A stretch of 36,216 nucleotides of DNA, taken from NCBI GenBank assembly GCA_937864125.1, contig CALMHZ010000032.1, positions 1 through 36,216 on the forward strand, given 5' to 3'. This DNA is from an uncultured bacterium. GTDB taxonomy: Bacteria; Patescibacteriota; Minisyncoccia; Moranbacterales; UBA1568. A program made the translations under genes and the position numbers. Below are positions 9,781 through 36,214 of this stretch, piece after piece. Under the pieces are notes generated by a model that had not been told where the DNA came from, made no database searches, and was given only the letters and a program-made list of their open reading frames with translations. How positions within the stretch are numbered: the first letter of the stretch is position 1; every line of letters begins with the position of its first letter.

Positions 9781-9946
9781 GCTTGAGGCGACCGACGGAT
9801 AGGCAACTTTTTCCATAAAAAATTTTGTTTGATTTCATTATAACACTTTTAAGAGAAGAAGACAACAAGTATGCCGGTAGTCATTTAAATCCCGATCTTT
9901 CATCTTTCCACTTGTGATCGTGAATACCTACATGTTTATATTAAAT

Positions 9947-9975
9947 ACTATGCAATAAAATATAGAATATGTCAA
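9947..9975 (-). promoter_or_regulatory. promoter-like sequence firing leftward
   Basis: Minus strand TTGACA, 17-bp spacer, CATAGT; mirror of the right-arm promoter. Confidence 0.45.
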
Positions 9976-9998
9976 GTATATATGTTCCACGTGGAACA
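9953..9998. repeat. left arm of 46-bp perfect inverted repeat bounding the parS-like array
   Basis: CAATAAAATATAGAATATGTCAAGTATATATGTTCCACGTGGAACA is the reverse complement of 10452-10497. Confidence 0.95.
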
Positions 9999-10467
9999 TT
10001 TTACTCCTCTGCTATAATTTTCTTTGCTTTATTAATAAAAATTATTGCTTCACTTGTAATAAGTATCTTACTTTGTTCCACGTGGAACATTATCCACGGT
10101 AAATAGTAATAAAATTTCAGAAAATTTATAAGATGCAATCAATTTGTTCCACGTGGAACAAATGCTATAATTTGAAAATACTTTTTCTTTAAAAAAATAA
10201 ACGATGGATCACTGGATATACTCACAAGGGACACAAAGAAAGTTTACCGTAATCATTCTTTCTTATTTTATAAGGTGCGCATGTTCCATGTGGAACATTA
10301 AATGTGCTTATACCAATAAAATTCAAGTCTCATTGTTCCACGTGGAACAATGAGATACTAAATTCTTCTTGAAATACCAACGCTATAGAATATGTTCCAC
10401 GTGGAACATTAGCTGTAGATTATTTTTCTATCACAGTAAGTAAAAGATAATTGTTCCACGTGGAACA
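9983..10467. promoter_or_regulatory. parS: cluster of seven parS-like palindromes (six perfect, one with 1 mismatch)
   Basis: TGTTCCACGTGGAACA at 9983-9998, 10074-10089, 10145-10160, 10334-10349, 10393-10408, 10452-10467; TGTTCCATGTGGAACA at 10282-10297. Confidence 0.85.
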
Positions 10468-10497
10468 TATATACTTGACATATTCTATATTTTATTG
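10452..10497. repeat. right arm of 46-bp perfect inverted repeat
   Basis: TGTTCCACGTGGAACATATATACTTGACATATTCTATATTTTATTG. Confidence 0.95.
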
Positions 10498-10503
10498 TAT
10501 AAT
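10475..10503 (+). promoter_or_regulatory. consensus sigma70-type promoter
   Basis: TTGACA (10475-10480), 17-bp spacer, TATAAT (10498-10503), upstream of tRNA-Ala. Confidence 0.75.
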
Positions 10504-10586
10504 ATAACATGGGGAGAAAATTATATGAAATTGACGCAAATATGAATACACGCTACCATATGGCATGACTTAAAATCCCGAATGCA

Positions 10587-10659
10587 GGGCCGTTGGCTCA
10601 GTTGGTAGAGCGCCTCCATGGCATGGAGGAGGTCACCGGTTCGAATCCGGTACGGTCCA
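10587..10659 (+). tRNA. tRNA-Ala (GGC)
   Basis: GGGCCGT...ACGGTCC; loop ATGGCAT; TTCGAAT. Confidence 0.95.
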
Positions 10660-10742
10660 CAAAGAGTCGTTATTCGAGGCCATTCGTATTTAAAAATCTC
10701 CGGATTGATTGCAGATGCTCCGCCATTCTTTTATATATTACA

Positions 10743-10817
10743 GCCCTTGTAGTTCAATGGATAGAACAGCCCCGTCCTAAGGGGTTGATGTGGGTTCGAT
10801 TCCTGCCAAGGGCACCA
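10743..10817 (+). tRNA. tRNA-Arg (CCT), CCA encoded
   Basis: GCCCTTG...CAAGGGC-ACCA; loop GTCCTAA. Confidence 0.9.
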
Positions 10818-35482: not shown

Positions 35483-35527
35483 GGTACCCTCTCCAACGGG
35501 TAACTGCCCTGGTTGAGCGGACGCCGG

Positions 35528-35556
35528 TATATAGGGGAGCGCCTCGGGCAAGTCAA
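35528..35556 (-). promoter_or_regulatory. promoter-like sequence upstream of rpmH
   Basis: Minus strand TTGACT-17-TATATA; lies in the suspect GC-rich tail. Confidence 0.4.
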
Positions 35557-35819
35557 CGACGGCCGGGGTCGCCCGCCCGCGGATCGAGTGGCAGAATAAG
35601 GACCCTTCCGGTGAGCGACGAGATGATGATCGCGGCCGCCGACACCACGGCGCAGGAGGGCACATCGCAGGATCACGCTGCTGCTGCCACGCTCGCCACG
35701 CCCTGCTGGAGTTGCCGCCGCTGCGGCCAGCGACAACCCGCGGCGGTGCGCCAGGGCTTTTTGCGCCACGGCGTGCCCCAGCGGCGGCGCCATGACCATA
35801 GCCCCTGACCTGGTGGCGC

Positions 35820-36214
35820 AGATCCTGCGTGATGTCCCGCGCCATCTCGCTCAAATTCACTTCCTCCGGCTTCAATTCGGCGCGGGTCACGCGGGACAGC
35901 TTCAGCAAGTCATCGATGAGTGAGCCCATCCTGTGAGCAGCGGCTCGTACGCGGTGCAGGGAGTCACGTCCCTTGGCGTCCAGATTATCGGCATGATCCT
36001 CAAGGAGGATCTGGCTGAAGCCGTCGATGGCGCGCAGGGGCGCGCGCATGTCATGCGAGACGCTGTAGGAAAAGGATTCGAGTTCCTGGCGCGCGGCTTC
36101 CAGGTTATCCAGGCGTTGTTTGGACGTTAACAGGTTATCCACGCGGGCCAGCAGTTCCTCCGCCCTGGCGCGGGCTTCCGCCTTCGACTTGCCGCCGATC
36201 CGCAGCGGCATCAT
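35820..36214 (-). pseudogene. histidine kinase fragment (DHp domain), probably foreign DNA
   Basis: [72 protein letters not shown]; homology lost after ~[11 protein letters not shown], no ATPase domain. Confidence 0.7.

Follow-up and report, generated by a model that had tools for sequence, protein, structure and literature searches.

The window, by which we mean the whole 36,216-nucleotide stretch of DNA that was analysed, contains seven sites of the form TGTTCCACGTGGAACA within about 0.5 kb, from 9983 to 10467. A motif search placed exact copies at 9983-9998 (parS 1), 10074-10089 (parS 2), 10145-10160 (parS 3), 10334-10349 (parS 5), 10393-10408 (parS 6), and 10452-10467 (parS 7), and one copy with a single mismatch, TGTTCCATGTGGAACA, at 10282-10297 (parS 4), all unstranded. 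The start-to-start spacings are 91, 71, 137, 52, 59, and 59 bp; the same seven sites, at these positions and spacings, had been listed in the first-pass annotation and were reproduced exactly. A search for DnaA boxes within the array found none. The outer sites, parS 1 and parS 7, lie in the two arms of an inverted repeat (57 bp, 95%) that encloses the array; a repeat search located these arms at 9945-10001 and 10449-10505 (unstranded). A sigma-70-type consensus promoter, TTGACA-17-TATAAT (10475-10503, plus strand), lies 7 bp past parS 7 and points toward tRNA-Ala, and a weaker mirror element, TTGACA-17-CATAGT (9947-9975, minus strand), points outward to the gene for a TSP3-repeat protein. Since the arms of the inverted repeat carry these elements, the array is bounded by outward-facing promoter-like elements, which are consensus matches only and are about as numerous in the region as in its shuffles. 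In the syntenic relatives examined, a TTGAC(A/T) element is found on the tRNA side after most of the outer parS sites.

The TSP3-repeat gene (PF18884; 8812-9816, minus strand) flanks the array on its left, as it does in many relatives, and tRNA-Ala(GGC) (10587-10660, plus strand) and tRNA-Arg(CCT) (10743-10817, plus strand) are its right syntenic neighbours. The origin side of the contig is marked by rpmH (L34; 35348-35482, minus strand), which lies beside dnaA/oriC in a genome of the same genus, G002, and the contig ends just beyond it. A HisKA histidine-kinase domain is encoded upstream of rpmH and in frame with it (35483-36214, minus strand), and the syntenic oriC-side sequence of G002 stops matching the contig beyond rpmH. 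To judge from the sequence, the contig end past rpmH looks chimeric.

The assignment of the palindromes to the parS form TGTTNCACGTGNAACA, made in the first-pass annotation, was borne out, as these 16-bp palindromes fit the form beyond chance both by shuffling and by a search of the whole genome. When up to three mismatches were allowed, shuffled sequence gave a mean of 0.05 sites, and none of 100 shuffles reached seven. The search of the whole 840,372-base assembly found no copy of TGTTCCACGTGGAACA outside the array at zero or one mismatch, so the array is the sole parS locus at this threshold; the two sites with two mismatches, on other contigs, are at about the level of a reversed-pattern control.

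A scan of the genes in the window found no parA or parB, as the first-pass annotation had reported. Both are on contig C84 of the same assembly, where the gene for the ParA ATPase adjoins parB. The encoded ParB has the Pfam domains ParB_N, HTH_ParB, and ParB_C together with CTP motifs; it contains GERR, ENIQR, and an N-terminal LGRGLSSLI, and it matches Thermus Spo0J (E 3e-54) and, in an alignment, Caulobacter ParB. It has R, T, S, and G where the Caulobacter protein has R173, T179, A184, and G201, which we take, from work on ParB and Noc, to be the positions that determine parS specificity. ScpB is encoded on contig C31.

The order to which the bacterium belongs is that of Candidatus Moraniibacteriota, and records under that name (L087, L102, and L150) share the neighbours of the array or the array gene described below. 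The motif is present in 47 of 58 relatives and ParB_N in 50 of 58, and the array is kept in most of the relatives that possess ParB. The motif copies form one cluster per genome in the loci that were read, 5-18 copies in many relatives, with spacings that vary from genome to genome; even within the genus, the spacings differ, and the sites remain exact or nearly so. The place of the array and its neighbours are common to many families of the order, with a conserved sequence of ftsH ... tRNA-Val, the TSP3-repeat gene, the array, tRNA-Ala, tRNA-Arg, a DHH protein, and uracil-DNA glycosylase. Six genomes (G012, G016, G019, G030, G035, and G050) have ParB and lack an exact TGTTNCACGTGNAACA, and their parS may have diverged. 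Five others (G018, G020, G021, G022, and G025) have the array with no ParB match. We considered these as 'orphan centromeres' and then set that biological reading aside, if not conclusively, because an assembly or binning gap is the simplest reading: parA runs into a contig end in G020 and begins 471 bases from one in G025, and in G018, G021, and G022, the whole block of ParA, ParB, and the adjacent folD is absent, probably through such a gap, with the array kept. The latter three assemblies are rated 94-98% complete despite the missing genes.

We did not locate dnaA in the assembly of the window, and the distance from the array to oriC was therefore taken from relatives. The 826,099-base contig of G002 carries dnaA at 144 kb, rpmH at 145 kb, a syntenic array of 12 sites at 167.8-168.5 kb, and parB at 301 kb, which puts the array about 23 kb from dnaA and 133 kb from parB. 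In 20-kb samples of this contig, the sign of the GC skew switches twice, once between the samples at 135-155 kb and 155-175 kb and once near 640 kb. The gap between array and dnaA is 32 kb in G010, 21 kb in G018, and 17 kb in G021. By these distances, the array lies close to the origin and, in G002, well apart from parB; for the genome of the window itself, whose contig ends past rpmH, the placement is indirect. The roughly 25 kb that separate the array from rpmH do not place it away from oriC, since in G002 the array has dnaA, rpmH, and the skew switch all at a distance of about 23 kb.

Being compact and having no parAB beside it, the array could look like the centromere of a plasmid or mobile element that had integrated into the chromosome. 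However, its place and neighbours are the same across many families of the order, it is surrounded by core chromosomal genes (FtsH, dCTP deaminase, ribonucleotide reductase, and tRNAs), and neither a rep gene nor an integrase was found among the window genes scanned. The combination of a rep gene and adjacent parAB, as in a plasmid centromere, is not seen here; the synteny is chromosomal, and parAB are elsewhere. The position of the G002 array near dnaA at the skew switch, with parB 133 kb away, likewise argues for a chromosomal centromere rather than a plasmid remnant, and we regard a plasmid origin as scarcely credible. Thus, the array is most likely the ori-proximal parS centromere of the chromosome of a reduced-genome CPR bacterium, as predicted from sequence and synteny. 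This upholds the core of the first-pass annotation, which had proposed the main chromosomal centromere, in that the genome has ParB and no second parS locus, and most relatives with ParB keep the array; the unusual, plasmid-like clustering that was part of the proposal finds no support.

In 20 other genomes of the order (G003, G004, G005, G010, G018, G022, G023, G028, G029, G033, G034, G036, G038, G039, G042, G044, G048, G052, G054, and G056), the array at this same locus lies within the open frame of an O-antigen-ligase-like (Wzy) gene, with three of five sites inside the frame in G052 and only one or two near-consensus sites in G044 and G056. Three named records (L102, L138, and L150) also carry the array in one frame. 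The array-borne open frames are about 455-690 aa long and, in seven regions that hold one, are on the strand opposite tRNA-Ala. Among 18 aligned members, Pfam Wzy_C was matched in 15, and FPHPN and QPVHN are among the motifs whose residues are fully or almost fully conserved. A single gene holds as many as 18 parS sites, all translated in frame. The palindrome contains no stop in any frame, and all three reading frames are used by the 162 sites in the 18 frames (60, 69, and 33), giving the peptides VPRGT/VSRET, FHV(E/K)H, and CSTWN. The in-frame sites fall in hydrophilic stretches (mean hydropathy 0.04 vs 0.64 for random positions, p ~1e-14) and often share alignment positions across members. 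Outside the parS codons, dN/dS is 0.16-0.38 (seven pairs), showing that the Wzy-type frames are under purifying selection. In G010 (L223:8978-10981), a parS-containing segment (FHVKHFLREKQENQNVSRETLSENN...) is present twice in the Wzy-type frame. This repeat suggests that parS arrays may grow by in-frame duplication.

These coding arrays also bear on whether the palindromes might be operators for a transcription factor, or Noc-like nucleoid-occlusion sites, that control the two outward promoters. Such a role would account for outer sites that abut consensus promoters on both sides. It accords poorly with a motif that is the parS consensus, is confined to a single locus, and occurs there in so many copies in many relatives, and with sites that in relatives are often spread through a coding frame. 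Furthermore, three of the four positions tied to parS specificity are R, T, and G in this ParB and not the Noc residues, if these positions presumably mean here what they mean in the Caulobacter ParB and Noc work. We consider control of the promoters by such sites very improbable.

The Wzy frame is absent and the array present in the genus of the window and in 14 other genomes. Seventeen genomes without the frame were read directly (the window, G001, G002, G006, G007, G008, G011, G014, G017, G021, G032, G037, G043, G046, G047, G049, and G055), and no frame of at least 200 aa holding two sites was found in any of them. The array of the window has no Wzy-homologous open frame across it and no relic of one: the best match in a search for gene relics scored 8.6 bits, and the best in the non-coding arrays scored 13 bits (G002), with nothing above noise in either. 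A profile of the array-borne proteins found a parS-free homologue elsewhere in 24 of 24 genomes that lack the array-type gene (the 17 read directly and seven more). In six coding genomes, the second match to this profile was never better than 2e-18. A coding array and a parS-free homologue are mutually exclusive states where tested. The array-borne proteins form a single clade (SH-aLRT 92), with the parS-free proteins of family f11 as its sister. The other parS-free proteins are more distant, so most parS-free homologues seem to have replaced the gene non-orthologously and not to be copies of it that moved.

On the ParB tree, the coding or non-coding label needs six changes, with a direction that the tree does not fix. 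G021 is non-coding and has the same genus code as the coding G010, G018, and G022, and G047 is non-coding and nested beside the coding G042; both look like recent switches. It is possible that the centromere was always intergenic in the lineage of the window and that the Wzy-type gene enclosed the array elsewhere, several times, which would compete only with the evolutionary part of our explanation. In its favour, family f11, which branches close to the midpoint root of the ParB tree, has a non-coding array and keeps the parS-free sister gene elsewhere. However, the array-borne genes form one clade across many family groups, their neighbours are the same where the flanks were read, and the non-coding G021 and G047 belong, by their genus code or their place in the tree, among coding genomes. 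Together, the single clade, the shared neighbours, and this nesting favour one carrier gene and repeated losses, although they are not decisive, and we think an always intergenic centromere unlikely. Our reading, including its direction, is that the enzyme gene was repeatedly lost and the centromere retained. Because the array of the window holds no relic, we infer the loss here from synteny and the ParB tree. That the centromere was ancestrally inside the O-antigen ligase gene, and that the enzyme was later displaced in several lineages, including that of the window, to leave a bare centromere, is the history we lean toward. If so, the parS word would be kept by selection for segregation and the frame by selection for the enzyme, with polar loops holding the translated palindromes. 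The centromere appears to outlive its host gene, or to move independently of it.

Our explanation of the locus as a whole, at a probability of about 0.92, is that it is a ParABS centromere kept as an intergenic island after loss of its former host, a Wzy-type gene. In the proposed mechanism, the seven parS sites would serve for the CTP-dependent loading of ParB dimers, which would then slide along the DNA on either side and recruit SMC-ScpAB. Movement of the ParB complexes by ParA would then segregate the origin region first. In an ancestor, the array would have been inside the O-antigen-ligase-like gene at the same place, as it still is in the 20 relatives. After that gene was lost, the parS-free homologue would serve from elsewhere, and selection for segregation would hold the array as a compact intergenic island, with putative outward promoters toward the TSP3-repeat gene on one side and tRNA-Ala/Arg on the other. 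The cluster of seven predicted ParB sites is probably the handle by which this bacterium segregates its chromosome, and the locus offers a clear, testable candidate centromere for these CPR bacteria. It also provides an order-wide case in which a centromere and an enzyme share DNA and in which the enzyme gene can go and the centromere stays. The shared DNA opens questions on how one stretch can be both transcribed and loaded with ParB, on the growth of parS arrays by in-frame insertion and duplication, and on what fixes the place of the centromere on a reduced chromosome.

The layout is less unusual than first claimed, and the surprise is the gene-borne state of the locus in relatives. A scan of 85,488 species gave at least 120 dense parS stretches in many phyla, and we therefore rejected the idea that only CPR bacteria have dense parS clusters. 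Among the matches listed, two from Verrucomicrobia (L068:6050-7999 and L088:1520-3754) have several parS sites in frame inside MnmG/GidA. Nearly or strictly periodic parS tandems, also among the matches listed, are found in L097, L163, L126, L118, L084, and L074, with units of about 36, 43, 42, 57, 64, and 55 bp; these records are from Bacilli, Deltaproteobacteria, Clostridiales, Ruminococcus, and Bacillales, and the spacing in the window is irregular instead. In the open-access literature, we found no report of a whole parS array hosted by one gene or of ParABS in CPR bacteria.

The 16-bp consensus and the type of ParB are the same as in the Spo0J/parS system of Bacillus subtilis, reportedly the subject of work by Lin and Grossman in 1998 that PMC5815017 cites, and SMC loading is likewise expected here. 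The parS sites of B. subtilis are scattered around the origin and do not form one island. The 'unusually clustered, plasmid-like' layout of the first-pass annotation gives way to a different picture, as compact arrays are the rule in the order and occur in many phyla and in Myxococcus (PMC3899335). In Myxococcus xanthus, 22 parS sites are packed into 3 kb at a distance of about 4 kb from parAB, and its ParB binds this cluster in vitro (PMC3899335). The two systems are alike in packing many consensus parS sites into a few kb near the origin (PMC3899335); unlike M. xanthus, the window has seven sites in 0.5 kb, and its parAB are on a separate contig, with a distance to parB of 133 kb in G002. 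In Pseudomonas aeruginosa, nine of ten parS sites are in coding sequence (PMC4368675), and in Caulobacter, parS lies within essential or costly genes (PMC5815017). The parS sites of the 20 relatives with a coding array are similarly intragenic, whereas the array of the window is non-coding. Those relatives differ from P. aeruginosa and Caulobacter in that one gene hosts the whole array, with up to 18 sites in frame, rather than isolated sites lying in different genes.
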